This document shows, in pieces, positions 1 through 22,197 of a stretch of DNA of 23,220 bases (its first letter is position 1; each line of letters begins with the position of its first letter). This DNA is from a virus, in the IMG/VR virus record IMGVR_UViG_3300037963_002004, positions 809 to 24,028 of that record; one strand, 5' to 3'. Below the pieces are notes generated by a model that did not search any database, was not told where the DNA came from, and saw only the letters and a program-made list of their open reading frames with translations. The position numbers and the translations under genes were made by a program.

Positions 1-690
1 GTTTACGGGGAGCTGCGTAAACGACTCGGGCAGTGTCGTTTTGAGTTTGATGTGGCGACCCCTGCACAAGCTGTTAAGGCTTTGTGCGTCAACTTCCCAG
101 GACTAGACAAGTGGCTTATTGATAGCGAGCAAGACGGTGTGGGTTATAGGGTCAAGATCGGCAAAGAGGATGTGACACCTGCGTGCTCTGATTTGCTGGC
201 AATGCCCTGGAGTGAACGAGAGGTATTCAGCATCACGCCTGTTGTGGCTGGTGCTGGTAGTGGTGTTGGCAGAATCTTTGCAGGTGTTGCGTTAATTGCT
301 GTTGCGATTGCTGTTCCAGGAGCTGGCCTAGCTGGAACCAGTCTTTTGGCATCTGTTGGTGGTGCCGCTACCTTTGGCGCTGGTCTTGCGGCTGCAGCTG
401 GCACGATTGGCATCGGCTTGGTTCTCACTGGTGCTGCTGAGCTGATTTCACCAATAAATGAGCCTGGTTTAGAGGCAAGCAAAGAGGCCGCAAAACTCCA
501 AAACATGAGCTTTAGTGGCGTTGTGAATACCTCTCGCCAAGGACTTCCTGTTCCCATAGCCTATGGACGTGTCTTTGTTGGATCGGCAGTGATCAGCAGC
601 GGCTTTGACGTAGATCACACGCCAAGTGAGCCGGTTGCAGAGGAAAATCAAAATCCATTCATCACATTCCTCAAAGCCAAAGGAAGTTAA
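1..690 (+). CDS. Tail assembly protein I-like (lambda gpI family), 5' end outside window
   Basis: Reading frame 1 is open from the first base. The first in-window residues (VYGELRKRLG, then FEFDVATPAQAVKAL) correspond to the N-terminal region of lambda gpI (CLYGDLQRFG...AEAIRAL). The GTG at 52 is therefore internal and the true start lies to the left of the window. A ubiquitin-like N-terminal part is followed by a long Ala/Gly-rich hydrophobic stretch (about residues 83-150 of the visible part), then GLPVPIAYGRVFVGS, typical of the family. In lambda-like phages this protein helps assemble the tail tip that J then completes. Its stop codon shares one base with the start of the J gene (TAATG), indicating translational coupling. 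Family call is by recognition. Confidence 0.88.
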   Translation, partial: VYGELRKRLGQCRFEFDVATPAQAVKALCVNFPGLDKWLIDSEQDGVGYRVKIGKEDVTPACSDLLAMPWSEREVFSITPVVAGAGSGVGRIFAGVALIAVAIAVPGAGLAGTSLLASVGGAATFGAGLAAAAGTIGIGLVLTGAAELISPINEPGLEASKEAAKLQNMSFSGVVNTSRQGLPVPIAYGRVFVGSAVISSGFDVDHTPSEPVAEENQNPFITFLKAKGS

Positions 691-3600: not shown

Positions 3601-4442
3601 TCATCATGCAGTTCCCAGACACTCTGGGGCGGCTTGCGGTCCAAACCCGCAGAGAGGATCTCGACAGCCCGCCTTTCCAAGGCACTAAGACCGACTGTTT
3701 CTACGACGAGGGCTTAGACGCGTTGATTATTGACGGTGACGAAGAGTTAGATAACCAAACGGATTTTGACAACATTAGTTCTTTTGACACGCTTGGCGAC
3801 ATCTTGACTTCTGCGGAATACCAGTTTGTAAATGCTCTTGATCTTGGCGCACGATTCTCGCTGGATATTCAGCGCCGATTCGTTACTAGAGCCTTCTTCC
3901 CGAATGACCTTATTGATTCCCGCACAGCAAACGTTGACACTTGGAACGATTTTGATGGCACCGATGCTGACGCAGTCAACGCCAAGCTCTATTTCAGAAG
4001 CACCAACGACGATCCGTCAGGCTCACCGACCTACGGCGCATGGCAGGAGTTCATTTCTGGAACATTTGAAGCCAGGGCTTTTCAATTCAAGGCAGAGCTG
4101 AACAGCTCCGATGTTGCGCAGAACATCTTGATTGACGAGCTGGGCTACCAAGCAACGTTCCAGCGGCGTCAAGAAAACAGCAATGGCGACATTGCTTCAG
4201 GAACAAGTACAAAAGCTGTGACGTTCGACAAAGCGTTTTTTACAGGTACTGCATCGCTGGGCGGGACAAACGCTTATCTGCCAAGCGTTGCTGTCACCGT
4301 GATGAACCTAGGAGCTGGCGAGCGGGTCAACGTCAGCAGCGTCTCGTCCACGGGTTTTAGCATTGACGTGCTGGATTCAGGCGGCAGCAACGTCAATCGC
4401 AACTTCACCTACCAAGCTGTGGGCTATGGCAAGGCGGTTTAA
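690..4442 (+). CDS. Tip attachment protein J (host specificity protein) with embedded Hint domain
   Basis: A 1250-residue protein. After a 14-residue Gly-rich leader and a Hint domain (residues 15-144), the rest follows lambda gpJ: Gly-rich start, then ...LCEGEIEGL, the WSAYTEI and YPNSALMG segments, the LIRGMKVKIPSN motif, GTWDGTF, WCLYDLL, RRYGVG, and YGIINKDIRALGCYSQGQAHRLGKW. Two fibronectin-III-like segments follow at about residues 778-880 and 880-970, then a beta-rich C-terminal region likely involved in receptor recognition. The protein forms the distal tail tip and in lambda binds the host outer-membrane receptor. The start overlaps the stop of the tail assembly protein gene. The unusual point is the Hint domain in the Gly-rich N-terminus, which lambda J lacks; the mature protein may be cleaved or spliced there. 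Confidence 0.93.
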   Translation: MENKTFIRGAGGGGCFTGDTLVSIPGGTKEIQEIGVGDVVCSFDDKGQINQAKVLKVHAHENERVIKYNLWGGQSLHATPNHWVLNQFNAFVEIDMLGSDDCLVDESNQLLPIVSREELGLRTVYNLTVEGHHTFIANGIRVHNAGLGLKVAGSGGGGGKGGGRSSRTPIEADDSLQSEQFANVLDLLCEGEIEGLDDGGRSIFLDDTPVQNADGSFNFQNFAIVVRNGTQGQSYIPAPVGAGNIESEQNVGVKVENGTPITRQITDTDVDRARVTINVPSLQRITDEGDILGHSVSLRIDIQYNGGGYNTYLSDTISGKCSSLYQRDYIIKFDGAFPVDIRVIRTSANETSSKKSSDIFWSAYTEIQDEKLRYPNSALMGMRFSAKQFSSVPTRKYLIRGMKVKIPSNATVDTTTHLGRITYSGTWDGTFQAATWTNDPAWCLYDLLIDQRRYGVGVDESTLDKFDFFSVSQYCNALVDDGKGGQEPRFSLNILINSRDEVFNVIQQLTSVFRGIAYYGAGSLVLRQDKPTDAQYLLGPANVIDGVFAYSGTAEKTRHTCATVGWQSYENFGEVEYEYIEDADAVAKYGIINKDIRALGCYSQGQAHRLGKWTLLSEKNLTETCSFAVAIDSGIVLTPGTVVDIADPLRAGTRRSGRVSSATTTVITVDSDTDLSVNLSNSPTISVMMPTGLVETKTISSISGAAITVSEAFSEAPNAAAVWLIQTSDIQSQQFRVVSVAENNDGTIGVTALAYNESIYNAVEQDVELTARDITNLSGVPEAPEGLSGTEFLYQEGQTVHTGFDLSWSHKRLNVNEFEVKYRIDDDNFEQVTTGAPSITLRALRAGELEVQILAKNYLGKQSSTATATFTLVGKTAVPGDVQNLSVEPISANSARLRWDQTVDLDVKVNGLVHIKHSNLTNGSATWPNSVDLIAAVAGNSTEAIIPLVEGEVLVKFEDDLGNKSTNATSVIMQFPDTLGRLAVQTRREDLDSPPFQGTKTDCFYDEGLDALIIDGDEELDNQTDFDNISSFDTLGDILTSAEYQFVNALDLGARFSLDIQRRFVTRAFFPNDLIDSRTANVDTWNDFDGTDADAVNAKLYFRSTNDDPSGSPTYGAWQEFISGTFEARAFQFKAELNSSDVAQNILIDELGYQATFQRRQENSNGDIASGTSTKAVTFDKAFFTGTASLGGTNAYLPSVAVTVMNLGAGERVNVSSVSSTGFSIDVLDSGGSNVNRNFTYQAVGYGKAV
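732..1121 (+). other. Hint / bacterial intein-like domain inside the J gene
   Basis: Encodes residues 15-144 of the J protein (130 residues). It begins with Cys15 in the block A signature CFTGDTLVSIPGGTKEIQEI. Block B is visible as HATPNHWV (conserved T..H), and the domain ends with a block F/G-like YNLTVEGHHTF...GIRVHN. The last two residues are His-Asn, as in inteins, but the next residue is Ala rather than Cys, Ser or Thr. That pattern matches A-type bacterial intein-like domains. There is no room for a homing endonuclease. Both flanks are poly-Gly (GAGGGG before, AGSGGGGGKGGG after). Confidence 0.88.
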
Positions 4443-12152: not shown

Positions 12153-12473
12153 TCAGAACTCTTCGTCGTCAGCCTTCTTGGGTGTGGCTGGCAGCGTGAA
12201 GTCAGACACATTTAGCTGCAGGCTGTAACCCTTGCCGCCATCTTTGCGGTCATACTCTTGCAGCTTGCCCTGGCCACAGACGGTGATCTTGTCGCCTTTG
12301 TGCATGTACTGCATGACGGTGTCAGCCCGCTTGCCCCAGACTTGGCAGTTGATCCAAGTGGTTTCATCCTTGCCGGTGCGTGTGGCGAGGCTGAAGTTGG
12401 CGACCTGTGAACTGGTGGTTTCCTTGAGTTCTGGGTCTCTGCCGATGTTGCCGTGTGCGGTGATGTTGAGCAT
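12153..12473 (-). CDS. ssb: Single-stranded DNA-binding protein (SSB)
   Basis: Encodes 106 residues: an OB fold starting MLNITAHGNIGRDPELKETT, then VANFSLATRTGKDETTWINCQVWGKRADTV, KGDKITVCGQGKLQEYDRKDG, and a short acidic tail ending ADDEEF that mimics the protein-interaction tip of bacterial SSBs (DDDIPF). It is shorter than host SSB (about 120-180 residues) because the linker is nearly absent. It coats ssDNA during replication and works with the ERF annealing protein encoded just upstream. Its start overlaps the stop of the 55-residue ribbon-helix-helix-like gene (TAATG). Identification is confident. Confidence 0.93.
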   Translation of the reverse strand: MLNITAHGNIGRDPELKETTSSQVANFSLATRTGKDETTWINCQVWGKRADTVMQYMHKGDKITVCGQGKLQEYDRKDGGKGYSLQLNVSDFTLPATPKKADDEEF

Positions 12474-12640
12474 TACTTTCCGTTGAAAAACTTGCTGAGA
12501 ATGATTTTGAGAGCTTGGTTTTGGTTGTAGTTGCGTGAATCCATGAAGTGGCGCAACTTGTCGGCTAGCTGATCGTCAAGCCGCACCTGAAAGAAGTTTT
12601 TGCGCCGCTTGAGGTCAGCTTCAGCTTGTGACTGTGGCAT
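12473..12640 (-). CDS. Small ribbon-helix-helix-like protein, 55 residues
   Basis: Encodes MPQSQAEADLKRRKNFFQVR, then LDDQLADKLRHFMDSRNYNQNQALKIILSKFFNGK. The pattern, a short beta strand (NFFQVRLDD) followed by a helix (DQLADKLRHFMDSR) and a second helix (QNQALKIILSKFF), is that of Arc/CopG ribbon-helix-helix DNA-binding proteins, with the polar strand residues that contact bases. It could be a repressor of early genes. It lies between the ERF gene (3 bp upstream) and ssb (one-base overlap), so it is co-expressed with recombination genes. The fold call is from pattern only. Confidence 0.78.
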   Translation of the reverse strand: MPQSQAEADLKRRKNFFQVRLDDQLADKLRHFMDSRNYNQNQALKIILSKFFNGK

Positions 12641-12643
12641 TGA

Positions 12644-13309
12644 TTAGGCAGTGATTTCGTTCATGGCATTTTGAAGGAAAGTGCGATGTGCGTAGGTTTG
12701 GATCTTGTCTTTGACAAGCCCCTCGGGATAGTTGAACTCTTTGCGGAACCGTTTGATTAGCTCTTGCTTGTGGTCTGCTTTGAGTTCCTTGATGACACCA
12801 TGGAGCAGCTCCTTTTCGCCATCCTTCATTGGGTCATTAGGCTTGGGCTCTGCTGCTGGCGCTGCATCTGCAGGTTTTGCTGATTCAGCTTTGCGGGCAG
12901 GACGGCTGACCTTTTTCTCTTGCTGCAGCTCAAGATCAAGGTTGCCATCCGTGTCCATATCGGCGCAGAGGCCAAGGATGCTGAGGATGGCGTAGCGCCG
13001 TTGGTAGGTGCAGCTTCCGCCCCAGTCATGGAGTGGATTGCGGCCTTGCCCAATGATCATGGGCACACGGCTGATGCACTCTTCACCGCTGGTATGGACC
13101 AGCTTAGTGATGAGGAGTGGGTTGGCCCCTTCGCCTTCAGCAGGCTCAAAGGTTTGCATGATGACGAGCCCAGCCTTGCTTAGCGGTGGTGTCACGGTGG
13201 ACAACACACCGCCAAGGTCTGCGTACTTGCCGTATTGAGCTTTGGAGTCTTTGGAGATTGATGGGACTTCCTTGTGGAAGGCCACCAATGCTTTAACGAG
13301 TTCAGACAT
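12644..13309 (-). CDS. erf: ERF-family single-strand annealing recombinase
   Basis: The ATG at 13309 gives 221 residues; an upstream frame extension to 13411 lies over the rusA gene and reads as a shadow. The N-terminal ERF domain is typical: LVKALVAFHKEVPSISKDSK, then YGKYADLGGVLSTVTPPLSKAGLVIMQTFE, and DWGGSCTYQRRYAILSILGLCADMDTDGN. A Lys/Ala/Pro linker (about residues 125-160) and a C-terminal helical part follow. ERF proteins anneal complementary single strands, as in P22. Here it is encoded with SSB, RusA and a PD-(D/E)XK nuclease in one leftward block, a complete recombination set. The start lies 8 bp inside the end of rusA. A copy of the palindromic regulatory element lies about 260 bp upstream. 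Confidence 0.92.
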   Translation of the reverse strand: MSELVKALVAFHKEVPSISKDSKAQYGKYADLGGVLSTVTPPLSKAGLVIMQTFEPAEGEGANPLLITKLVHTSGEECISRVPMIIGQGRNPLHDWGGSCTYQRRYAILSILGLCADMDTDGNLDLELQQEKKVSRPARKAESAKPADAAPAAEPKPNDPMKDGEKELLHGVIKELKADHKQELIKRFRKEFNYPEGLVKDKIQTYAHRTFLQNAMNEITA

Positions 13310-13748
13310 CAATGGTGGTGATGGTGATGAGGGCGCCTGGTGACTCACTGGCAGTGGCATAACGGCGTTCAGCATTGATGCTGAAAACCTGTGAATCGTC
13401 GTCGTATGCAATGCCTGTCAGTGCATCGCAAACAGCTCTACAGAGCTTGTCCAGATCCCCGATGCGTGTGACGCAATGCTGTGGAGCACTGCCCTTGAGT
13501 TCACCATTGGCACGGAAGTGAGCTTTCGGCCTGGCAAAAACAAAGGTCAACGTCAACGACACGGGTAGTTTGGCATGCCATTGCTCAGGTTGCAACCTGC
13601 GGGCACAGCTGGCAACAACCTTCCTCCACGGATCTACGGCGGCTGAGCTTTCCCCGAGGATTGCCCTTCCTTTGATGTAGCGGTGGACTTTCTTGCTGCC
13701 CTGGGGCGCTGGTTTGCCTGTGGCGTAGAAGGTGTAGCTATTGGACAC
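13302..13748 (-). CDS. rusA: RusA-family Holliday junction resolvase
   Basis: Encodes 148 residues. The N-terminus SYTFYATGKPAPQGSKKVHR and the conserved acidic core RIGDLDKLCRAVCDALTGIAYDDDSQV match the RusA family (D-x-D-(N/K)-L-x-K ... D-x-L-x-G-x-x-Y-x-D-D-x-Q-V), with the acidic residues that bind metal for symmetric junction cleavage. RusA enzymes resolve recombination intermediates and branched DNA before packaging. The gene overlaps the upstream small gene by about 115 nt in another frame and overlaps the ERF gene start by 8 nt. A copy of the palindromic regulatory element lies within it at 13570-13595. Confidence 0.93.
   Translation of the reverse strand: MSNSYTFYATGKPAPQGSKKVHRYIKGRAILGESSAAVDPWRKVVASCARRLQPEQWHAKLPVSLTLTFVFARPKAHFRANGELKGSAPQHCVTRIGDLDKLCRAVCDALTGIAYDDDSQVFSINAERRYATASESPGALITITTIDV
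13567..13595 (-). promoter_or_regulatory. Palindromic operator/promoter-like element inside rusA (copy 1 of 4)
   Basis: On the minus strand TTGCAA, 8 bp, ATGGCATGCCAA (13570-13581). The -35-like hexamer lies in a 12-bp palindrome AGGTTGCAACCT (13587-13598). The -10 position reads CAAACT, a weak match. It points towards the ERF, ribbon-helix-helix and ssb genes, whose first start is about 260 bp downstream. It could be an internal promoter or an operator at a distance. Confidence 0.45.
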
Positions 13749-13891
13749 TGCTGCCTTCGTTGAGCGTTGTAGAACGCTTTTTCTAATGCAGTCAGCTTGG
13801 GAGAGCTTTCACTGAGCGCAGCTTTTGCGCTTGCTTTTGCACCAGCAACGTACAGATGCGGTGTTGTGCTCCAGTAAATGCCCTTGCCCAT
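13634..13891 (-). CDS. Small basic hypothetical protein overlapping rusA
   Basis: The ATG at 13891 overlaps the upstream stop (TAATG) and opens an 85-residue frame: MGKGIYWSTTPHLYVAGAKA, then SAKAALSESSPKLTALEKAFYNAQRRQQC, then a Pro/Ser/Lys/Arg-rich tail. The last 38 residues lie over the start of rusA in a different frame. The first half (13891-13749) would otherwise be an empty gap in a packed operon and reads as a normal protein, so translation is likely. The tail composition looks dictated by the rusA frame. No family is recognised. Confidence 0.55.
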   Translation of the reverse strand: MGKGIYWSTTPHLYVAGAKASAKAALSESSPKLTALEKAFYNAQRRQQCPIATPSTPQANQRPRAARKSTATSKEGQSSGKAQPP

Positions 13892-14100
13892 TACTTCAGC
13901 TTTTCGCAGGCAGGTTGCCAGCCTTGGGCGCAGTGTTGTGCCTGCTGCTGGTCCAGCGTGCTGGTGATTGAGTACCAAGCTGCTGCACCAAACAGCGCAA
14001 AGGCAACGACAGTGACGATGGCGTTGATCTTGGTGCTGACTTGCTCAGGGCTGTACATCTTGGTGCGGCGCTGGCGTGGTCGGTAGGCTTTGTAGTTCAT
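13891..14100 (-). CDS. Small single-pass membrane protein, 69 residues
   Basis: Encodes a basic N-terminus (MNYKAYRPRQRRTKMYSPEQ), one hydrophobic helix at about residues 26-46 (NAIVTVVAFALFGAAAWYSI), and a short polar C-terminus (STLDQQQAQHCAQGWQPACEKLK) with two Cys. The positive-inside rule suggests the N-terminus stays in the cytoplasm and the Cys-containing tail faces the periplasm. It starts 3 bp after the upstream stop and its own stop overlaps the next start (TAATG). Function unknown. Membrane proteins of this size in early phage operons are sometimes superinfection-exclusion factors, which is only a guess here. Confidence 0.72.
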   Translation of the reverse strand: MNYKAYRPRQRRTKMYSPEQVSTKINAIVTVVAFALFGAAAWYSITSTLDQQQAQHCAQGWQPACEKLK

Positions 14101-14103
14101 GGG

Positions 14104-14589
14104 TCAGTTGCGGTTTTTAGGTGGACGGCCCCGGCGGGGTTTTGATGCTTGAGCTTGCTGAGCTTTGTACTTTTCTTTGGCCTTGTCCCTTGCGTCTGAC
14201 AAGACCTTGCAGGCTTGATGGTTGCCTTCAAGCTCCTTGTACTTGGCCTGGGCCTCAACCACCAACGCACATCGAGCAACGATTGTTTCCTGAATCAGCT
14301 CTTGGGCTTGGTGGTGTCGCCAAAACCAAGTTTCAGAGTCTTGGTTGGTGTATTCCTTGAGCAGTTTTTCATGCTCATCCGTGACATCCTCTTGCCTGAA
14401 CTGAGCGTCAATGGTTGCGTCAAAGGCAGCCATCAGTGAAGTCACCTTGCGGGCTTCCATGATGACGTTGCGGTCTGCTTCACGGATTGCTTCAAACCGT
14501 TGGCGATGTGCAGCCAGTGCCTTGATGACTTCAGGCTGCGCTTCAACGAAACGGTTTTGTGCTGCGTAATCAATTGGTGGCGTTGTCAT
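14104..14589 (-). CDS. Helical protein with C-terminal AT-hook-like motif
   Basis: The ATG at 14589 gives 161 residues, MTTPPIDYAAQNRFVEAQPE onward; the longer frame to 14715 runs over the upstream gene. The body is almost entirely helical and charged, likely coiled coil (VIKALAAHRQRFEAIREADR, YKELEGNHQACKVLSDARDKAKEKYKAQQAQ). The C-terminus KPRRGRPPKNRN contains the Arg-Gly-Arg-Pro core of an AT-hook, which binds the minor groove of AT-rich DNA. A DNA-associated early function is likely but unproven. The start overlaps the preceding gene by 20 nt, so it belongs to the leftward early operon. Confidence 0.72.
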   Translation of the reverse strand: MTTPPIDYAAQNRFVEAQPEVIKALAAHRQRFEAIREADRNVIMEARKVTSLMAAFDATIDAQFRQEDVTDEHEKLLKEYTNQDSETWFWRHHQAQELIQETIVARCALVVEAQAKYKELEGNHQACKVLSDARDKAKEKYKAQQAQASKPRRGRPPKNRN

Positions 14590-14812
14590 AAAACTTGGAA
14601 AGGTGTTCTTTAAAGGCGTCTGGCCTTGAGCCGTATGCCTGCAAGGCTTTGCCCAGCAGGTCAGCTTCCAAGTAGCCCAACGATTGACGGAAAGGTTGAG
14701 GCCCGTTGCCTTCACCGATGAGGGTGAGGAACTTGCCCCAAGTGCTTTCGTCTTCGTTGTTTTGCCAATCAGCCAAGCGATCCATGTGGTACAAGGCCTC
14801 TTGGTAGTTCAT
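14570..14812 (-). CDS. Hypothetical early protein, 80 residues
   Basis: Encodes MNYQEALYHMDRLADWQNNE, then DESTWGKFLTLIGEGNGPQPFRQSLGYLEADLLGKALQAYGSRPDAFKEHLSKFY, an acidic helical protein. It starts inside the previous stop (ATGA overlap) and ends 20 nt inside the next gene. No membrane helix, signal peptide or known motif. It is one of a run of small genes between two copies of the palindromic regulatory element; such early runs often hold host-takeover proteins, but nothing here proves that. Confidence 0.68.
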   Translation of the reverse strand: MNYQEALYHMDRLADWQNNEDESTWGKFLTLIGEGNGPQPFRQSLGYLEADLLGKALQAYGSRPDAFKEHLSKFYDNATN

Positions 14813-14991
14813 CGGCGGCGCTGGTGATAAAGGTCAGTGAGCTTGAGGTCCATGAGGGCGACTTGGTTGGCCCAACTGCCCGGCTCTGGAATGTCGTCCG
14901 AGTCAGGAAGGTTGTTGCGTGCATCTCTAGCCAACTCGTAGAGGAGGTCTAGTTCTGCACCTGTGAAGGTGACTGAGTAATCAATTGTCAT
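14809..14991 (-). CDS. Hypothetical early protein, 60 residues
   Basis: The ATG at 14991 overlaps the upstream stop (TGATG) and is preferred over the GTG one codon earlier. The product MTIDYSVTFTGAELDLLYEL is followed by ARDARNNLPDSDDIPEPGSWANQVALMDLKLTDLYHQRRR: a short beta start, an acidic helix and a basic end. Helix and loop arrangement (F-T-x-x-E-L-x-L-L) is like other small phage regulators, but no family is recognised. It is coupled to genes on both sides (one-base and four-base overlaps). Confidence 0.68.
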   Translation of the reverse strand: MTIDYSVTFTGAELDLLYELARDARNNLPDSDDIPEPGSWANQVALMDLKLTDLYHQRRR

Positions 14992-15164
14992 CACATCCCC
15001 AGTTTTTGCTTGACCAGCTTGCCGATCATGTTGCGGTACTTGCTGACAGCCTTGCGGTGGGTGGTCATGGCAGTCATGTCATTGGCTGCGATGGCGTGGC
15101 TGTAAGAAGTTTGTGCGTCATCAAGAAGAACCTTGATGCTGTCGATTTGCTGTTGGATGGTCAT
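14991..15164 (-). CDS. Hypothetical early protein, 57 residues, first gene after a predicted promoter
   Basis: Encodes MTIQQQIDSIKVLLDDAQTS, then YSHAIAANDMTAMTTHRKAVSKYRNMIGKLVKQKLGM, a helical, basic protein. It lies about 35 nt downstream of the predicted transcription start of the palindrome-containing promoter at 15206-15234, and the next gene starts inside its stop codon. It is therefore the promoter-proximal gene of the small-gene run. No family recognised. A rightward open frame of 282 codons covers the same DNA but is judged a shadow. Confidence 0.68.
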   Translation of the reverse strand: MTIQQQIDSIKVLLDDAQTSYSHAIAANDMTAMTTHRKAVSKYRNMIGKLVKQKLGM

Positions 15165-15205
15165 TGGTTTGTGTGTGTGAGGGACATCCCTGCCCCGTTG
15201 AACAT

Positions 15206-15234
15206 ATTATGGCATGCCATTGCCTGGTTGACAA
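15206..15234 (-). promoter_or_regulatory. Leftward promoter with embedded palindromic operator (copy 2 of 4)
   Basis: On the minus strand: TTGTCA, 17-bp spacer, CATAAT. The spacer and -10 contain the perfect palindrome ATGGCATGCCAT (15209-15220). It reads towards the 57-residue gene starting at 15164. The -35 side also sits in an inverted repeat GGTTG-T-CAACC (15226-15236). The 15-base stretch ATGGCATGCCATAAT is identical in the rightward copy at 18912. The promoter overlaps the last codons of the upstream gene. Confidence 0.68.
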
Positions 15235-15878
15235 CCCCACAGCTTCCCGGATTTGACTGCATCCCACATGACTTCATTGATCAGGTCAGCAACCTGCACG
15301 CCCTTGAGTTCTGCGGCAACCCGCAAAATAACCATCAGGCCTTGATCAGTTTTGCCCTGAAGCCGTGCTGTGCTCTTTGTCAGCAGCAAACCCGGATTGT
15401 CACCCTGTTGGAAAAAAGCAGTGATTTGATCTGGCTGATTCGAGGAAGTGATCTTGCCGTCGCTGACAACATCCAGCGGCGAACGCGGTTCTGTTGCTGC
15501 AACTTCCAAAGCATGTTGGTTGATCAGGTTGTTGGCGATTGTCCGATCGTTTGGCGTTTGCTCTTCAAAACGGATTGCAGCCCCAGACCATTGAACAGAT
15601 TCTTCATTGCGTGCCCCCAAAATTGCAACTTTCAAAACAAGCCCAGAGGCAGCCAAGCTTTCGTCGCTGAGTTGAATCAGTTGCTTAATCGTTGGATCTG
15701 CAGTGCCATGAGGGCCGGGGAAAACACGCACCTTTTCTGTGCGGCCTTGGTTGATGACCATCCCGTACAAATGTGGCTTGTCACTGTTGGGCTGGGCCTC
15801 TGTGATGTGAACCTGAACTTCTTGTTTTGTTAAATCCAATGCCGTGTGTGTGATGGCCTGCGAATGGTGGCATGCCAT
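15207..15878 (-). CDS. Hypothetical early protein, 223 residues
   Basis: The frame opens with an ATG at 15878 that directly follows the upstream stop (TGA then ATG) and lies inside a copy of the palindromic element. A TTG at 15839 would give 210 residues, starting (M)DLTKQEVQVHITEAQPNSDK. The body has beta-rich parts (PHLYGMVINQGRTEKVRVFP, GLVLKVAILGARNEESVQWSGAAIRF) and a helical C-terminus (GLMVILRVAAELKGVQVADLINEVMWDAVKSG). No catalytic motif, signal peptide or membrane helix is seen and I do not recognise the family. The last codons and stop lie in the next copy of the palindrome. Between the nuclease block and the small-gene run, a DNA-related early role is possible. Confidence 0.75.
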   Translation of the reverse strand: MACHHSQAITHTALDLTKQEVQVHITEAQPNSDKPHLYGMVINQGRTEKVRVFPGPHGTADPTIKQLIQLSDESLAASGLVLKVAILGARNEESVQWSGAAIRFEEQTPNDRTIANNLINQHALEVAATEPRSPLDVVSDGKITSSNQPDQITAFFQQGDNPGLLLTKSTARLQGKTDQGLMVILRVAAELKGVQVADLINEVMWDAVKSGKLWGCQPGNGMP

Positions 15879-15892
15879 TCACTTGCGTGCAA
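15864..15892 (-). promoter_or_regulatory. Palindromic operator/promoter-like element (copy 3 of 4)
   Basis: On the minus strand TTGCAC is followed after exactly 8 bp by ATGGCATGCCAC (15867-15878), the same geometry as the other copies. The -10-like hexamer 17 bp downstream of the -35 is CACCAT, a poor match, so this copy may be an operator more than a strong promoter. It overlaps the stop of the upstream gene and the ATG of the 223-residue gene, so binding here could also affect that gene's expression. Confidence 0.5.
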
Positions 15893-16067
15893 CCCTCGGG
15901 ATAATTTTTTCCTTTCGCTTGACGCTGCCCTTTGCACGTTTTTTGCCGTGCTTGATATATCGCTGACGTGTTGTTTCTGCAGCAGCTTCAACAGCTTCTG
16001 CCCTACCAGGAGGTTCACCTGGCCCACCATTTGCAGGGTCCAGCAGTTCAGACCAGTTCAAGCTCAT
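15879..16067 (-). CDS. Small conserved-type basic protein, 62 residues
   Basis: The ATG at 16067 overlaps the nuclease stop (TGATG). Product: MSLNWSELLDPANGGPGEPP, then GRAEAVEAAAETTRQRYIKHGKKRAKGSVKRKEKIIPRVARK. The N-terminal half (NWxELLDPxNGGPGxPPGRxEAVE) is acidic with a compact motif; the C-terminal half is strongly basic (14 Lys/Arg). I recall similar small proteins beside phage RecB-type nucleases but cannot name a family. Coupling to the nuclease gene suggests it acts with it, perhaps as a DNA-binding accessory. Confidence 0.72.
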   Translation of the reverse strand: MSLNWSELLDPANGGPGEPPGRAEAVEAAAETTRQRYIKHGKKRAKGSVKRKEKIIPRVARK

Positions 16068-16750
16068 CACCACAAATCCCCTAGTTCTTCCTGCTCAAAC
16101 TGGTAACGGTCCCAACTGTCTAGCCATGCCTCAACACAGTCATCAGGGTTTTGCCGAATGACACGGCACTCTTTCGGGCCTGAAACAACTGTCACGCATT
16201 TGTCGACATGCAATGCAGGGTGATGGTCGATCAGCATGGCCAAATATGCTCCAAGCTGATCAGTAGCAGCTTCGCGGGTGCGTGCCCTGCTTTTGCTGCC
16301 GACTGTTTTCAAGTCACCGAGGATGATTTCGCCGGTTGATGACTGCAACAGAAAGTCAAATGAACCGCCCATAGATTTTCTGGGGTCACAAAGCCTGTAC
16401 TCAGTGGCGATCACTTTTGCGCCCTGAAACAGCTCACACTCCAGCATTGGGTCAACCCAGTCTGTCCAGCGTTCTGCAAACTCAATAGCCTCGCCTTTCA
16501 GGTGGCTTTCAAGGGCACTGTGGATTTGTTCACCCCTTGCCGCCCAACCGTTGGGGCCATCCTTGTATCGCATGATGTTGGCCAGTGCATCGGGGGAAAG
16601 CTTTGCCCCGAGCACCCCAGTGACTGACCTTGCAAGCCACTCGGCCTTGTACTTGTACCGGTGCCATTCCGGGAAAAATGAAAGCCCTTTGATTTCTTTG
16701 ATTTTTTGGGGTTGCCAGGCCGGGTCATTCTGGGCACACTTCGCCGGCAA
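16067..16750 (-). CDS. PD-(D/E)XK nuclease of the RecB/Cas4-like exonuclease type
   Basis: Encodes 227 residues from a TTG at 16750. Motifs appear in family order: RGEQIH (His77), TEYR (Glu117), GGSFDFLL (Asp132), GEIILGDLKT (Asp146 and Lys148, the D-x-K of the metal site), and DQLGAYLAML (Gln165, Tyr169). No helicase part and no iron-sulphur Cys cluster are evident. Such phage nucleases resect ends to give single strands for an annealing protein; the ERF protein and SSB encoded downstream would use the product. The start is uncertain because no ATG precedes the catalytic core except internal Met60; the TTG lies 14 bp from the opposite divergent start. Confidence 0.87.
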   Translation of the reverse strand: MPAKCAQNDPAWQPQKIKEIKGLSFFPEWHRYKYKAEWLARSVTGVLGAKLSPDALANIMRYKDGPNGWAARGEQIHSALESHLKGEAIEFAERWTDWVDPMLECELFQGAKVIATEYRLCDPRKSMGGSFDFLLQSSTGEIILGDLKTVGSKSRARTREAATDQLGAYLAMLIDHHPALHVDKCVTVVSGPKECRVIRQNPDDCVEAWLDSWDRYQFEQEELGDLW

Positions 16751-16764
16751 AGCAAGCCCAAAAC

Positions 16765-16929
16765 GTGCCTGAACTGGAACAGATCACCAACACAAGAGTC
16801 CTCATCGACCCAAGGGTGATCGCTGAAGTGGATCGCAAAAAACCAATCGGCGTCAGCCGCACTGGCTGGGTCAACCTGCTTTTGCAAAAGGCCATCGCAT
16901 CTGAGCCTGAGCCGCTGGCTCGTGATTGA
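16765..16929 (+). CDS. Small ribbon-helix-helix-like protein, 54 residues
   Basis: The GTG at 16765 opens (M)PELEQITNTRVLIDPRVIAE, then VDRKKPIGVSRTGWVNLLLQKAIASEPEPLARD. A beta strand (TRVLIDP), a helix (RVIAEVDRKKP) and a turn plus second helix (VSRTGWVNLLLQKAI) match the ribbon-helix-helix pattern of small phage and plasmid repressors. It is the first gene of the rightward replication unit, divergent from the nuclease gene with only 14 bp between the start codons. That is where a switch regulator is often found. The next gene starts 8 bp before its stop. No Shine-Dalgarno site; start and fold are inferred. Confidence 0.66.
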   Translation: MPELEQITNTRVLIDPRVIAEVDRKKPIGVSRTGWVNLLLQKAIASEPEPLARD

Positions 16930-17302
16930 CTACGACAAGGAGCACCAGGCATGGGAGCTTCTGCAGTGGCAGATCTGGTCATTGCCTGGTGAGTTTGATG
17001 AAGACCTGGCAGCCAAGGGCTATTACACAGACCTGCAGCGCAAAAGGTCGGACCAAGCTTTAGACGCTTGGGATGCTGAACATCCCCAGCAAACCAGCCC
17101 CGAACTTGAAGCCTTCAAAGAGCTTGAGCGGCTGGGTGTTTACGGACAACGCACATGGTTCTCGCCTTCCAAGGCCAAAGATGGGTTCTACACACAACGC
17201 CTCAAACAACGACAGCAACGCGGATCCAAGCCTTCAGGATTGCTTGGACCAAGTCGCATCACTCAAAAGCGCAGCCGTAAAAGTCGTTGGCGCAACGACT
17301 GA
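16922..17302 (+). CDS. Hypothetical protein, 126 residues, overlapping the ATPase gene
   Basis: The GTG at 16922 lies 8 bp inside the preceding gene. The product begins (M)IDYDKEHQAWELLQWQIWSL, with an acidic, Trp-rich helical N-terminal half (GEFDEDLAAKGYYTDLQRKRSDQALDAWDAE), then ELEAFKELERLGVYGQRTWFSP and a very basic end (KRSRKSRWRND). The last 122 nt overlap the start of the ATPase gene in a different frame. The N-terminal part is clearly protein-like; the C-terminal tail may be shaped by the other frame. No family recognised. Placement before the replicative ATPase suggests a replication accessory or loader role, by position only. Confidence 0.65.
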   Translation: MIDYDKEHQAWELLQWQIWSLPGEFDEDLAAKGYYTDLQRKRSDQALDAWDAEHPQQTSPELEAFKELERLGVYGQRTWFSPSKAKDGFYTQRLKQRQQRGSKPSGLLGPSRITQKRSRKSRWRND

Positions 17303-18893
17303 CTCTGTTGACCGCCTGTTCATGCTGCGGAACCAAGCTGAAGAGCTTGGCTGCGCCCTCAGCAAATCAGAAGCGGCGCATTACTTGGCGCAGGCCACTG
17401 GCCGCAACGTTGGCATCCCAGAGCCAAAGCAAGGCGGGCAGAAGCTTGATGTTTCCCCTGTCCCTTGGCTGTGGGAGGGCGTCATCATGCGTGGCCGCCA
17501 GAACTTGGTGGTGGCACCACCCAAGGTCGGCAAGTCTGCCCTGATGACGGCGATGGCTGCTGCTGCGCTGCGTGGTGATGCTGACTTCCTCGGCATCCCG
17601 GTCCACGGGCAGATCAACAAGCTGATCATCGTTGGCACTGACCAGAACGTATCTGACTGGTGGGTGCTGTTTGACCGTGAAGGCTTGGGCACCCAAGGCG
17701 TTGACCAGGACGGTGAACGTTTCCACAAGTTGGCGGAAGGGGTCATCCTTTGGAGCCTTGAGGATGCGGTGCAGCTCAACGACAACGGCCTTGAAGCCAT
17801 TGCTGCCATGGCGTCCAAATATCCCGGCTCGCTTGTGCTGATAGACACGTATCACGCCTGCGTTGGCCAGCTTGGGATTGAGGAAGCCAGCAGCGATTTT
17901 GACATTCCAGCTCGCAAGCTTGAAGTCGTGCTGTCTGGCACTGGCAGTACCACTGTCCTGATCCACCACACCAATAAGTCGGTGTCTGGCGGCAATGCCA
18001 TCACAGCCAGCCGGGGGAGCAACAGCCTTGCAGGCGCTGTCAGCTGGTCTGTGTTGCTGAACTGGCTAAAGGTGCCTGTTGAAGGCCAGATGCAAACCGA
18101 CCATCGGATTGCTGTGAAACCGATGGGCAGGAGCAAGGCCACCAACTTGGTGGTTGAGCTGACTGACGACGGCTGGGTCAGCCATGGCGATGGTGACGAT
18201 GCCATTGCAGCGGAAGCCCGTGCCCAGGTTGAGGAAACGCTGCAGGGCCGTCAGGAGTCTGCTTATGACCATTGCTGCCAGCTGTGGGAAAACAAGGTCC
18301 ACACAACTGCTGCTGAGATTGCCAGCCACTGCAACATCAGCAGGCAGAAAGCACTCCGGACGTTGAAGGCTTTGGTCACCAAGGGGTTGATCGTGCAGGA
18401 CGGTGAGTTGCCTGCTGACACCGCTGGGCGTCCTGCTGCTTTGTATCGCCCTGTATTTGACACCCCCAATGACCTATCCAAAAAAACAGGGGGTCAAAAG
18501 GGTCAAACGTGTCAAATTCATGAATCAGCCGTTGATGAGCAAGAGCCTGGGGGTCAAAGGGGTCAAATACCTGCAGCACTGGGATCTGATGCCTCGCGCG
18601 CACATATAAAAAGGGATTTGACACATAAAACACACTTGACCCCCTCTGACGGCGAAGGGGTGCCTGAGGGTGTCTTATTGCCGGTGCCTGTTGGCACGCA
18701 TGTGGAGCGGTTGATTGGCGACTCTTGGAAGAACGGCTGGCTTGTGCGTGATGGGTCCAATCCCAACCGGATGGTGATTGCCAAGCTGGGCAACGAGATG
18801 CTGACCATGAGCAATCAGCGTTGGGGTGTGGACATCCGTGAAAACAAGGGCAGCGTCTTCGCTGCACCAGCAGCAGAAGACGATGAATGGTGA
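17181..18893 (+). CDS. RepA-like hexameric helicase / AAA_25-type ATPase
   Basis: The ATG at 17181 gives 570 residues (an upstream extension to 17073 and an internal ATG at 17322 are possible). The RecA-like ATPase core has Walker A APPKVGKS (residues 112-119), the KLIIVGTDQ strand, Walker B SLVLIDTYH (Asp222) and VLIHHTNKS followed by ASRGSNSLAGA, as in RepA/AAA_25 replicative ATPases. A winged-helix-like segment follows at about residues 373-405 (TAAEIASHCNISRQKALRTLKAL). A low-complexity linker encoded by iteron-like repeats is next, then a C-terminal beta domain (HVERLIGDSWKNGWLVRD, RWGVDIRE) ending acidic (EDDEW). It is the likely replication initiator/helicase. No primase or polymerase is seen in the window. 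Confidence 0.82.
   Translation: MGSTHNASNNDSNADPSLQDCLDQVASLKSAAVKVVGATTDSVDRLFMLRNQAEELGCALSKSEAAHYLAQATGRNVGIPEPKQGGQKLDVSPVPWLWEGVIMRGRQNLVVAPPKVGKSALMTAMAAAALRGDADFLGIPVHGQINKLIIVGTDQNVSDWWVLFDREGLGTQGVDQDGERFHKLAEGVILWSLEDAVQLNDNGLEAIAAMASKYPGSLVLIDTYHACVGQLGIEEASSDFDIPARKLEVVLSGTGSTTVLIHHTNKSVSGGNAITASRGSNSLAGAVSWSVLLNWLKVPVEGQMQTDHRIAVKPMGRSKATNLVVELTDDGWVSHGDGDDAIAAEARAQVEETLQGRQESAYDHCCQLWENKVHTTAAEIASHCNISRQKALRTLKALVTKGLIVQDGELPADTAGRPAALYRPVFDTPNDLSKKTGGQKGQTCQIHESAVDEQEPGGQRGQIPAALGSDASRAHIKRDLTHKTHLTPSDGEGVPEGVLLPVPVGTHVERLIGDSWKNGWLVRDGSNPNRMVIAKLGNEMLTMSNQRWGVDIRENKGSVFAAPAAEDDEW
18456..18640. repeat. Iteron-like GTCAAA repeats; candidate replication origin
   Basis: GTCAAA occurs in direct orientation at 18493, 18502 and 18511 (exact 9-bp period) and again at 18553 and 18562 (9-bp period), usually preceded by G-runs (GGGGGTCAAA). 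Inverted copies TTTGAC occur at 18456 and 18617, and CTTGACCCCC at 18635. All lie in the linker-coding part of the ATPase gene. Iterons inside an initiator gene are known from lambda O. The 9-bp period equals three codons, so a peptide-repeat explanation is possible for the direct copies but not for the inverted ones. Confidence 0.6.
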
Positions 18894-18926
18894 TGGCTTG
18901 CCATTTGCTTGATGGCATGCCATAAT
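18893..18926 (+). promoter_or_regulatory. Rightward promoter with tandem palindromic operators (copy 4 of 4)
   Basis: TTGCCA (18898-18903), 17-bp spacer, CATAAT (18921-18926). The perfect palindrome ATGGCATGCCAT (18912-18923) covers the spacer and -10. A near-palindrome ATGGCTTGCCAT (18893-18904, one mismatch) covers the -35, 19 bp upstream. A repressor binding either site would block RNA polymerase. The expected start of transcription is near 18933, about 30 nt before the ATG at 18962. Confidence 0.72.
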
Positions 18927-18961
18927 CAATGCAAGGGCGGGAGCCCACCACACACAGCACC

Positions 18962-19204
18962 ATGGACAACCACAACATGCGACTCCTTTGGTTTGAGTCG
19001 TTTCAAAAACACCAAGATGAGCTTGAAGCAGCCAACCTTCTGAAGCTTCAAGCCATGGAACCTCAAACCCGCTACTACGTTGAAGCCAAGCTTGACGGCA
19101 AGCTTGAATGGACTGAATGGGCCTACACGGCCCATGAGCGTGACCAGCTGGTGCAAGACGCCAAGGACTGCGGCTTCTCTTACACCGTTGAGGAGCACGA
19201 GTAG
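18962..19204 (+). CDS. Hypothetical protein, 80 residues
   Basis: The ATG at 18962 is chosen because the predicted promoter -10 ends at 18926, which would make an ATG at 18929 almost leaderless. Product: MDNHNMRLLWFESFQKHQDE, then LEAANLLKLQAMEPQTRYYVEAKLDGKLEWTEWAYTAHERDQLVQDAKDCGFSYTVEEHE. A helical N-terminus is followed by a beta-hairpin with paired Trp and an alpha/beta end. The stop overlaps the next GTG (TAGTG). No family recognised. It is the first gene under the best palindrome-containing promoter, so expression is probably controlled by whatever binds that site. Confidence 0.7.
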   Translation: MDNHNMRLLWFESFQKHQDELEAANLLKLQAMEPQTRYYVEAKLDGKLEWTEWAYTAHERDQLVQDAKDCGFSYTVEEHE

Positions 19205-19958: not shown

Positions 19959-20013
19959 ACCGAAGCTTCGGCAACTACGGCTACTCTGGATAGCGCATCC
20001 AGATAACTGCTAG
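19840..20013 (+). CDS. Small hypothetical protein, 57 residues, coupled to the ParB-like gene
   Basis: Encodes MNSASKMPIPNAKIRNLDDG, then CVQITVGNISGTVSSHHLVEPKLRQLRLLWIAHPDNC, a compact beta-rich protein; an internal Met7 is an alternative start. The stop overlaps the GTG of the ParB-like gene (TAGTG), so the two are probably translated together and it may be part of the DNA-modification operon. I do not recognise a family. A second frame starting at 19782 overlaps its first 119 nt; this frame has the more protein-like composition across that stretch. Confidence 0.6.
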   Translation: MNSASKMPIPNAKIRNLDDGCVQITVGNISGTVSSHHLVEPKLRQLRLLWIAHPDNC

Positions 20014-20606
20014 TGACAATCGCATCAGACAAAATCGTCCAGCGTGAAACTGAAGTTCTCAAGCCATACGAAAACAATCCACGGCAACATTCAGAAGCAC
20101 AGCTTGATCGTCTTGTCCGATCAATCAAAGAGTTCGGTTTTACAAACCCAATCCTCATTGACGATGACTGCAATGTGATTGCAGGTCATGGCCGCCTGCT
20201 GGCTGCAGAACTCATGGGCTTGGCCCAAGTGCCGACCATCACGCTTGGCCACCTCACAGCTGATCAGCGCCGTGCCTACGTCATTGCTGATAACCAGCTG
20301 GCACTCAACAGCACTTGGGATGACGACGTGCTGCAGGCTGAACTGCAAGCCTTGGGTGAAGCTGGCTACGACCTGACCCTGCTCGGCTGGGGTGATGACC
20401 TGCCCACCTTTGGTGAGGACATTGACCTGTCGGCCCTTGATGACTTGGAAGACGATCCAACAGCAGAGCTAGCTGATGGTGTCATGAAGGCCATCCAGAT
20501 TGAATTCCGCCCTGAAGACTATGAAGAAGCCAAGGCCCTGGTGGAAGCCGCTCGCAAGCGTGGTGAATACGTGGGCATGAAGCTGATTGAGGCTTTGGCT
20601 GCATGA
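20013..20606 (+). CDS. ParB/sulfiredoxin-fold (ParB N-terminal-like) protein
   Basis: Encodes 197 residues from a GTG. The ParB-like domain covers about residues 10-100: LKPYENNPRQHSEAQLDRLV, then SIKEFGFTNPILIDDDCNVIAGHGRLLAA (GHGR at 58-61, the nucleotide-binding motif of the fold), and ITLGHLTADQRRAYVIADNQLA. The rest is acidic and helical, with no methyltransferase motifs, although phage ParB-like domains are often fused to DNA methylases. CTP- and ATP-dependent activities are known in this superfamily. It overlaps the glycosyltransferase gene by 4 bp (ATGA) and heads the ParB-glycosyltransferase-dioxygenase operon, so it probably serves DNA modification, for example in DNA targeting or nucleotide chemistry; this is inference. 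Confidence 0.87.
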   Translation: MTIASDKIVQRETEVLKPYENNPRQHSEAQLDRLVRSIKEFGFTNPILIDDDCNVIAGHGRLLAAELMGLAQVPTITLGHLTADQRRAYVIADNQLALNSTWDDDVLQAELQALGEAGYDLTLLGWGDDLPTFGEDIDLSALDDLEDDPTAELADGVMKAIQIEFRPEDYEEAKALVEAARKRGEYVGMKLIEALAA

Positions 20607-21400
20607 TCGACTATCAGATCGCAATCCCCAGCTACAAGCGGCCAACGCGTCTGATCACAGAAACGCTCACAACGCTGAAACGCACCAATGCTGATTTCAG
20701 CCGGGTCACCGTCTTTGTAGCGGACAGCAATGAAAAGCACCTCTATGACACTGCCCTCCAAGCCATTGGCCTGGGCATCAAGGTTGTGATCAGCCAGCCA
20801 GGCCTGATCAACTCACGCATCTGGTACAACCTGCATTACTACAAGCCCGGCACACGCATCCTGAACTTGGATGACGACATCGCTGGGCTGTACGTCAAAG
20901 ATGGCAACGCCTTGCAGGCGTACACCGGCGACCTTGACCGCCTTGTGTCAAAGGGCTTCCAGGTCTGTCAAAACACCGGGGCAAAACTCTGGGGAATCAA
21001 CCCTGTGGCCAATGGCATGTTCCTGAAGCCGACCATCACCGTTGGCCTGCGATACATCTGTGGAATCTTCCACGGTACGTTTGCAGGTGATCCGGCCATG
21101 TGCGGTGATGATCGCCCGCGCCAATCATCTGGTGAAGACTTTGAGCTGACCCTCAGGTCGTTCAAGCGTTACAAGGGTGTGGTCCGGATTGATGGCTACG
21201 CACCCAAGACCAAGTACTTCGCAGAAGGCGGTATCCAGGCTGAACTTGGTGGCAAGGACAAACGTGCGAAAGACCACGAAGCTCAGCTGCAGCAGATCGT
21301 TAACCGTTTCCCTGGCATCAGCAAGCTATATGTCAAGTCCGGCGATGTGCCCAACATCAAGCTCAAAACAGTCACTCACGGAAAGCTCCAGTGGATATGA
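20603..21400 (+). CDS. TET-associated glycosyltransferase-like (TAGT, GT-A fold) DNA glycosyltransferase
   Basis: Encodes 265 residues. The N-terminus YQIAIPSYKRPTRLITETLT, then VTVFVADSNEKHLY and the acidic ILNLDDDIAGLY (Asp90-92, the DxD-type sugar-nucleotide/metal site) are typical of GT-A enzymes. Their spacing resembles the TET-associated family, of which the trypanosome base J glucosyltransferase is a relative. A downstream SSGEDFELTLRSF fits the acidic catalytic region. It would transfer a sugar to a hydroxymethylated base in DNA. It overlaps the ParB-like gene (ATGA) and the TET/JBP-like gene, which makes the substrate. The sugar donor cannot be read from sequence. Pairing with the dioxygenase is the main support for a DNA rather than protein or lipid acceptor. 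Confidence 0.82.
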   Translation: MIDYQIAIPSYKRPTRLITETLTTLKRTNADFSRVTVFVADSNEKHLYDTALQAIGLGIKVVISQPGLINSRIWYNLHYYKPGTRILNLDDDIAGLYVKDGNALQAYTGDLDRLVSKGFQVCQNTGAKLWGINPVANGMFLKPTITVGLRYICGIFHGTFAGDPAMCGDDRPRQSSGEDFELTLRSFKRYKGVVRIDGYAPKTKYFAEGGIQAELGGKDKRAKDHEAQLQQIVNRFPGISKLYVKSGDVPNIKLKTVTHGKLQWI

Positions 21401-22197
21401 AGCTGCCAGTCTTAACCCTGCAGCCCAAGGCGCCCAAGCTCAAGATCGGGGACACCTGCCCAACTCTGCAGCCCAACGTCACAGAGTCCTGCATCCTTGC
21501 TGACCCTGATGGCACTCAAGTCGGCCTGTTCATCAAGCAACTGCCTGATGACCTGCGGAACCTGATCAACATTGCTGACCACGAGGTCAACTCACCAAGG
21601 GTGCCCAAAACGATGATGGACCGGAAACGTCCATTGCCACCTGGCCCCAACGGCAAGAAGCGCTACCTGGTCATCTCCCAGTACTCAGCCATCCTTGGCA
21701 GCGTGCCGCCCAAGCCACATATGCGACGGGCGTACGGCACACGGTCCTCTGTCCACAGCAGCAAGACCGCTGGCACCTTTGTCAAAGCCATGCACAAGGC
21801 GGGCATCACCGCTTATCAGCTTGTTCAGGAGCTGGCGCCTGATGTCACCCAGCTGCACAGCAGCAAGGTCCAAGCTCGTGTGCCCGAGAAGTGGCGTTTC
21901 GCAAAGCACTTCAGCAGCACCATCAGCAACTGCAACATCGCAGCGCCAATCCATCAAGATCACGCCAACGTCAAAGGCGCCATCAATATCATCATCACCA
22001 AGCGGCGGAACAGCACTGGCGGGAACTTGCATGTGCCCGACTACGACGCCACCTTTGACCAAACGGATGGCTCGATGCTTGTCTATCCGGCATGGAGGAA
22101 CTGCCACGGTGTGACGCCAATAGTTCCCACGCATCAAGGCGGCTATCGCAACTCACACGTTTGGTACGCCCTGGATTCGTTTGCATCATTAGGCTGA
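21397..22197 (+). CDS. TET/JBP-type 2-oxoglutarate/Fe(II) DNA base dioxygenase
   Basis: The ATG at 21397 overlaps the preceding stop (ATGA) and gives 266 residues. The double-stranded beta-helix core carries the expected ligands: HQDH (His186 and Asp188, the HxD iron motif), GGNLHVPDY (209-216), DGSMLVYPAW, CHGVTP (His237, distal iron ligand, with the V-T-P that is characteristic of TET/JBP enzymes) and GGYRNSHVWY (Arg251, the 2-oxoglutarate-binding Arg). This set is specific enough to separate it from AlkB or prolyl hydroxylases. It should hydroxylate the methyl group of 5-methylcytosine or thymine in DNA. The N-terminal 150 residues are less conserved and may read DNA. It sits between the glycosyltransferase and terminase genes, so modification would precede packaging. 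Confidence 0.87.
   Translation: MKLPVLTLQPKAPKLKIGDTCPTLQPNVTESCILADPDGTQVGLFIKQLPDDLRNLINIADHEVNSPRVPKTMMDRKRPLPPGPNGKKRYLVISQYSAILGSVPPKPHMRRAYGTRSSVHSSKTAGTFVKAMHKAGITAYQLVQELAPDVTQLHSSKVQARVPEKWRFAKHFSSTISNCNIAAPIHQDHANVKGAINIIITKRRNSTGGNLHVPDYDATFDQTDGSMLVYPAWRNCHGVTPIVPTHQGGYRNSHVWYALDSFASLG

Follow-up and report, generated by a model that had tools for sequence, protein, structure and literature searches.

A probable early promoter, repeated and with an operator in its spacer, in a group of siphoviruses, and a small ribbon-helix-helix protein as its candidate repressor

Why does one ten-base palindrome recur at a fixed distance from a TTG trinucleotide, in front of several early genes of a virus and once inside a gene? 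The question arises from a window of 23,220 nt of the virus record IMGVR_UViG_3300037963_002004 (record positions 809 to 24,028; all coordinates below are window positions). The 24,028-bp record codes for a tail-tip/host-specificity protein and has Erf, RusA, SSB, exonuclease and RepA-like genes, and the terminases nearest to its own are those of Synechococcus and Prochlorococcus siphoviruses. Our answer, to which we give a probability of roughly 0.7, is that the palindrome is an operator in the spacer of a modular early promoter used by a group of cyanosiphoviruses, that the small ribbon-helix-helix (RHH) protein RHH2 would bind there as a repressor, and that the transcripts would carry a 5′ hairpin.

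The window contains the sequence TTG-N11-ATGGCATGCCA four times without a mismatch, at 13571-13595, 15210-15234 and 15868-15892 on the minus strand and at 18898-18922 on the plus strand. By chance, 1.8e-4 copies of TTGN11ATGGCATGCCA would be expected in the window, and 0.024 copies of the decamer TGGCATGCCA alone. The remainder of the 24,028-bp record, including the structural half, contains no fifth copy of TTG-N11-ATGGCATGCCA. The initial annotation of this DNA had already described four copies, each displaced by one base from the coordinates given here, with a fixed distance from TTG to palindrome, a -10-like hexamer 17 bp past TTGNNN and a restriction to the early/replication block. All of this holds, with the TTG-N11 spacing identical in the four copies and none in the structural half of the window. 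It had also seen a GGTTG..CAACC inverted repeat in most copies, but only sites 1 and 2 have this repeat, as do 2 of 83 related promoters, and we do not count it as part of the element. New relative to that annotation are the hairpins past sites 2 and 4, an imperfect second palindrome at site 4, and the positions of site 1 within rusA and of site 3 over a start codon, all described below. The four sites are as follows.

Site 1, 13567-13595, minus strand: putative intragenic promoter-operator in rusA, with TTGCAA at 13595-13590, operator TGGCATGCCA at 13571-13580 and the -10-like CAAACT at 13572-13567.
Site 2, 15206-15234, minus strand: putative promoter-operator TTGTCA-17-CATAAT, with the operator at 15210-15219.
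Site 3, 15864-15892, minus strand: operator at 15868-15877, with TTGCAC and a weak -10-like CACCAT, at the start of the open reading frame (ORF) 15207-15878.
Site 4, 18898-18926, plus strand: putative promoter-operator TTGCCA-17-CATAAT, with the operator at 18913-18922, downstream of the RepA-like gene.

The sequences of sites 2 and 4 are strongly promoter-like. Their -35 and -10 hexamers at 17-bp spacing, overlapped by the operator, have the layout of a repressible sigma-70 phage promoter. Site 3 is a weaker relative, and its palindrome covers part of the annotated ATG start codon of the ORF; related phages have TTG or CTG in place of this ATG, and TGGCATGCCA is invariant there. Site 2 would serve a leftward recombination operon that begins with a 57-aa (amino acid) ORF and continues through four other small ones to rusA, erf, RHH2 and ssb, and site 4 would serve the rightward genes past the RepA-like gene. 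Site 1 lies upstream of erf, RHH2 and ssb. An imperfect second operator, TGGCTTGCCA, at 18894-18903 overlaps the -35 of site 4, and such a copy was found in 14 of 83 related promoters. We rejected a tandem upstream operator, TGGNTTGCCA, as a general part of the promoter; it occurs in 14 of 83 promoters, mainly in the window's own group. The genes concerned are listed below.

12153-12473, minus strand: ssb, the final gene of the recombination operon as described.
12473-12640, minus strand: RHH2, a 55-aa ribbon-helix-helix protein and candidate regulator, between erf and ssb.
12644-13411, minus strand: erf, for an Erf-like single-stranded DNA annealing protein, downstream of site 1.
13302-13748, minus strand: rusA, for a Holliday junction resolvase (PHROG 140, E 8e-26), the gene that contains site 1.
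14992-15164, minus strand: 57-aa ORF of unknown function, the first gene past site 2.
16765-16929, plus strand: RHH1, another small conserved protein of these phages, which may be RHH-like as well.
17073-18893, plus strand: RepA-like hexameric helicase/primase gene, upstream of site 4.
18962-19204, plus strand: 80-aa ORF of unknown function, the first gene past site 4.

We propose the following mechanism for these phages, which would be siphoviruses that probably infect Synechococcus. The host's sigma-70-type RNA polymerase would use TTGNNN and CAtaAT at 17-bp spacing, and the 10-bp operator TGGYATRCCA would fill the spacer and overlap the first two bases of the -10. This placement should make binding by the protein and by RNA polymerase mutually exclusive, which favors repression by accumulating RHH2. 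The protein, presumably a dimer of the RHH type whose putative recognition strand has an invariant Gln and Arg, would be made at the end of the recombination operon under sites 1 and 2. It could then accumulate during early infection and shut off the promoters, including the intragenic one for erf, RHH2 and ssb, in a delayed negative autoregulation. Transcripts from most such promoters are predicted to start at or just before a 5′ hairpin capped by a GNRA loop.

The geometry is maintained well beyond the window. A scan of IMG/VR for TTGN12TGGCATGCCATRAT found 86 viral stretches with 114 distinct sequences. In loci free of selection for the motif, i.e., those fetched by protein similarity alone with RusA or RHH2 queries, and after deduplication, 58 of 125 oriented operators have TTG at precisely this offset, versus 0-14 at any other offset. 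When TAMT follows the operator, TTG is present in 31 of 32. The RHH2 query alone yielded 80 loci (731 kb). Among the perfect 10-bp palindromes in these loci, TGGCATGCCA ranks far ahead with 106 occurrences, the next having 15, and it accounts for 33 of the 35 palindromes that are followed by TAAT. The isolate S-CBS3, which is grown on Synechococcus CB0202, has two copies of a variant, TGGTATGCCA, with unchanged geometry, at positions 26119 and 28919 of its genome. In larger relatives searched whole, nearly all operators are in the early/replication block, as assigned by synteny with the window or, for S-CBS3, by annotation, and structural genes have none. The motif is therefore neither scattered through these genomes nor found in their structural genes. 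The module, its fixed geometry and its restriction to this phage group are evident from these comparisons. The fixed TTG offset in relatives and the early-block location, together with codon selection in rusA (see below), support the earlier reading, in which these promoters form a regulon and each has its operator built in.

What might bind the operator? A comparison of gene content revealed two short proteins, RHH1 and RHH2, that recur in almost all motif-bearing groups, and RHH2 accompanies ssb in every such group that covers the region. The AlphaFold model of RHH2 has an extended segment followed by helices at 23-36 and 40-52, which is the strand-helix-helix layout of Arc and CopG, and the top Foldseek matches are CopG, NikR, Arc and AmrZ, with E above 1. 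The best profile match among PDB sequences is SvtR (2kel, E 0.008). The strand F-Q-V-R-L alternates polar and hydrophobic residues, and Q18 and R20 are invariant in 12 diverse members. Arc-type proteins contact DNA at the strand positions that correspond to Gln18 and Arg20.

The distribution of RHH2 also follows that of the operator. A rusA gene spanning the site carries the operator in all 54 RHH2-bearing loci with an FQVR-type strand. This number comprises 52 loci scored as FQVR and two with KRR-rich N termini that are FQVR-type by alignment; it leaves out eight FQVR loci scored without an operator, whose rusA genes are fragments of at most 91 aa. By contrast, in an FNVR lineage, with Gln changed to Asn at position 18, full rusA genes lack the operator in four of four loci (L297-L300, i.e., contigs 3300022074_001541, 3300037847_004560, 3300037961_001051 and 3300035135_000662). 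This lineage has no TTG-TGGYATGCCA promoter, one 24-kb contig of it has no operator at all, and no recurrent promoter-embedded palindrome was found in it as an alternative operator. In the window, RHH2 follows the rusA operator at a distance of about 0.9 kb; across loci it is 0.76-1.02 kb downstream, in the same orientation, a placement that suits negative autoregulation. RHH2 is thus most likely the regulator among the candidates, and it would bind the operator and repress.

The strongest competitor, which we nonetheless regard as unlikely, is that the operator is real and is bound by RHH1 or another phage factor. The RHH1 gene adjoins replication genes, and RHH1 is present in nearly every motif-bearing phage group. 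However, a structural relative of S-CBS3, the phage S-CBS1, encodes RHH1 yet lacks both RHH2 and any operator copy, and S-CBS3 has both RHH2 and the operator. In addition, the presumed strand of RHH1 varies (TRVLI, YRVTI, NYVLL, IKVVI) while the operator is constant, no PDB sequence matched RHH1, and its structure matches are poor.

Another reading, with slightly less in its favor, is that the bound protein activates the promoters. The RHH protein AmrZ is reported to be an activator as well as a repressor (PMC3325190). However, the operator here occupies the spacer, which has the optimal length of 17 bp, and extends into the -10, so that binding would normally exclude RNA polymerase. Spacer activators of the MerR type act on longer spacers. 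We therefore continue to favor repression.

Binding of the palindrome by a transcription factor of the host, with the phages imitating a host regulon, is very unlikely. The hexamers are of the host sigma-70 type, as such imitation would have it, but in a cellular set with one genome per species (84,980 species, a much larger set than the viral one) TTGN12TGGCATGCCATRAT has 32 matches. These look like chance occurrences because they are spread over unrelated phyla, and none of the 32 record titles names a cyanobacterium. Moreover, the exact operator has no copy in the related Synechococcus and Prochlorococcus siphoviruses S-H1, KBS-S-2A, P-HS2 and MED4-117.

Site 1 was initially viewed as a mere coding coincidence. 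In the reading frame of rusA the decamer coincides with a conserved Trp-His-Ala, and the -10 of this site is poor. A codon test reversed the initial view. We compared 24 rusA genes, deduplicated at 95% identity, over ~143 codon columns, and found a mean synonymous identity of 0.53. Outside of Met and Trp codons, the only invariant third bases are those of the Leu TTG at the -35 and of the CAT/TAT and GCC/ACC codons of the palindrome. The first base of the codon after the palindrome core is always A, the last base of the palindrome, even though this codon encodes Lys, Ile, Arg, Met, Thr or Asn, and such first-base invariance is seen only at this codon. The residue variants W-H-A, W-Y-A and W-H-T all spell TGGYATRCCA, i.e., the swaps of H/Y and A/T stay exactly within the operator consensus. 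In phages with TGGTATGCCA promoters, rusA often has TGGTATGCCA or its complement. Because only the TTG and palindrome codons keep their third bases and the next codon keeps its A, the pattern indicates that the promoter-operator is preserved within coding DNA by selection on DNA as well as on protein. That site 1, and perhaps site 3, reflects only the coding of RusA therefore has very little probability left. As a regulatory site kept inside a gene, the copy in rusA is a clear example that can be read from codon usage.

At sites 2 and 4, a hairpin with a GGGA loop, which is of the GNRA type, is found 8-9 nt past the -10, at the predicted transcript start, and is followed by ACACACA and an ATG.

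15181-15196, minus strand: site 2 leader hairpin GGGGCA-GGGA-UGUCCC, which begins 9 nt past the -10 and is followed by CACACACACA and the ATG at 15164.
18935-18946, plus strand: site 4 leader hairpin GGGC-GGGA-GCCC, followed by ACCACACACA and the ATG at 18962.

The site 2 leader has a minimum free energy of -9.7 kcal/mol, but single-sequence folding z-scores are not significant for either leader of the window, and site 2 is no better than its shuffles. The support for the hairpin is instead comparative. We counted hairpins in register with shuffle controls, given that RNAalifold on MAFFT-aligned leaders mis-registered them. A GNRA-looped hairpin whose stem has at least 4 bp, at most 45 nt from the -10, occurs in 49 of 83 deduplicated promoters, versus 0.9 expected in shuffled leaders. 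Among these related promoters, all four stem positions vary among GC, CG, AT or GU pairs, and the hairpin most commonly starts 6-10 nt past the -10, which is the predicted +1 or just after it. In the larger phage genomes scanned, GNRA hairpins that have a -10-like hexamer before them and an ACAC-type sequence after them are at operator promoters, and the other GNRA hairpin matches mostly lack this context. No Rfam family matched the window or six related loci at the gathering threshold. The hairpin probably protects the 5′ end of the mRNA or binds a factor.

Several observations weigh against the reading that we favor. Since the -10 hexamers of sites 1 and 3 are poor and neither site has a GNRA leader, these two may be weak promoters or operators. 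Some two fifths of the related promoters have no GNRA loop, and several of those have other hairpins. The rusA gene of S-CBS3 has no operator despite the presence of RHH2. As for the regulator, the AlphaFold model is of a monomer with a predicted local distance difference test score (pLDDT) of 78, no Foldseek match is below E 0.001, and scores against curated profiles are weak (RHH_1, E 0.0022 in two members; Arc, E 0.025 in one; the PHROG Arc-like repressor, E 0.04). The FNVR lineage counts only once, because it is probably a single evolutionary event. Finally, co-distribution alone cannot single out RHH2, which is linked to ssb, erf and rusA.

A broader picture, which is tentative and in our estimate rather more likely wrong than right, is that operator, core promoter and GNRA-capped hairpin are inherited as one unit. 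This unit would have been copied before fast-changing small early genes and kept in rusA at the cost of amino-acid freedom, and RHH2 would be the master early switch of widespread cyanosiphoviruses.

Among known systems, Arc of phage P22 is a small RHH repressor whose operator is between the -10 and -35 of the early ant promoter. The proposed system resembles it in having a small phage-encoded RHH protein, an operator between the hexamers and, putatively, negative control of early genes. However, Arc acts at one promoter region, whereas here there would be several early promoters, one of them intragenic, with a hairpin leader, and RHH2 has only weak sequence similarity to Arc (the single Pfam match noted above). 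SvtR of Sulfolobus virus SIRV1 is a ~56-aa RHH repressor that acts on its own promoter and binds at a small number of further sites in the virus (PMC5569661). It is close to RHH2 in size and fold class, and its structure is the nearest PDB match mentioned above. By contrast, its host and promoters are archaeal, and its operator is different and imperfect, with the site of highest affinity far upstream of the core promoter.

In the rudivirus Aca8 regulon, the available part of the report describes a conserved promoter-plus-operator repeated before small, poorly conserved early genes, and proposes a virus repressor (PMC11065993). The repetition before small early genes and the proposed shut-off by a virus-encoded repressor are shared with our system, but the Aca8 virus is archaeal and its regulator is a winged helix-turn-helix protein; neither an intragenic copy nor a 5′ hairpin is among the features reported in that part. 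E. coli ompA and papA have 5′-terminal stem-loops that stabilize mRNA (Emory, Bouvet and Belasco 1992, as cited in PMC3997798). Our predicted hairpin is likewise at or very near the transcript 5′ end; unlike them, it is short, GNRA-looped and tied to operator-bearing promoters, with an effect on stability that is only putative. In a search of the open-access literature, TGGCATGCCA occurs in 16 papers, and none of the 15 listed concerns a phage regulon, as judged by titles and abstract openings; the available part of a study of S-CBS1 and S-CBS3 relatives has only generic promoter prediction. A phage early regulon that is Arc/SvtR-like by sequence thus has no earlier description in the literature searched.

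The first genes past operator promoters in the fetched loci fall into 38 blast families of mostly short and mostly unannotated ORFs. PHROG matches were obtained for two of eight examples tested, both to families of unknown function. Given that these genes are short, mostly unannotated and behind early promoters, they are candidates for early takeover of the host or counter-defense, and possibly have such roles. Some loci have entirely different genes behind near-identical promoters. The motif can be used as bait for candidate takeover or counter-defense genes in relatives, as is reported to have been done for archaeal viruses (PMC11065993). Early gene control in cyanobacterial siphoviruses has been little studied, and the present regulon is defined by sequence, has a named candidate regulator and is open to testing with a single purified 55-aa protein and a single oligonucleotide.

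Two further features of the window are apart from the regulon. A Hint/intein-like module at 690-1130 (plus strand) lies toward the N terminus of the tail-tip J-like protein (690-4442), before the J FNIII domain; it matches Pfam Hint (E 8e-7) and Intein_splicing (E 4e-6), both under the curated cut-offs. At 20013-22197 (plus strand), adjoining genes encode a ParB-like protein, a TET-associated glycosyltransferase (Pfam TAGT, E 7e-8) and a Tet/JBP-like oxygenase (E 1e-7, under the cut-off), for which the PHROG label is queuine tRNA-ribosyltransferase. This group is a possible cytosine hypermodification cassette.

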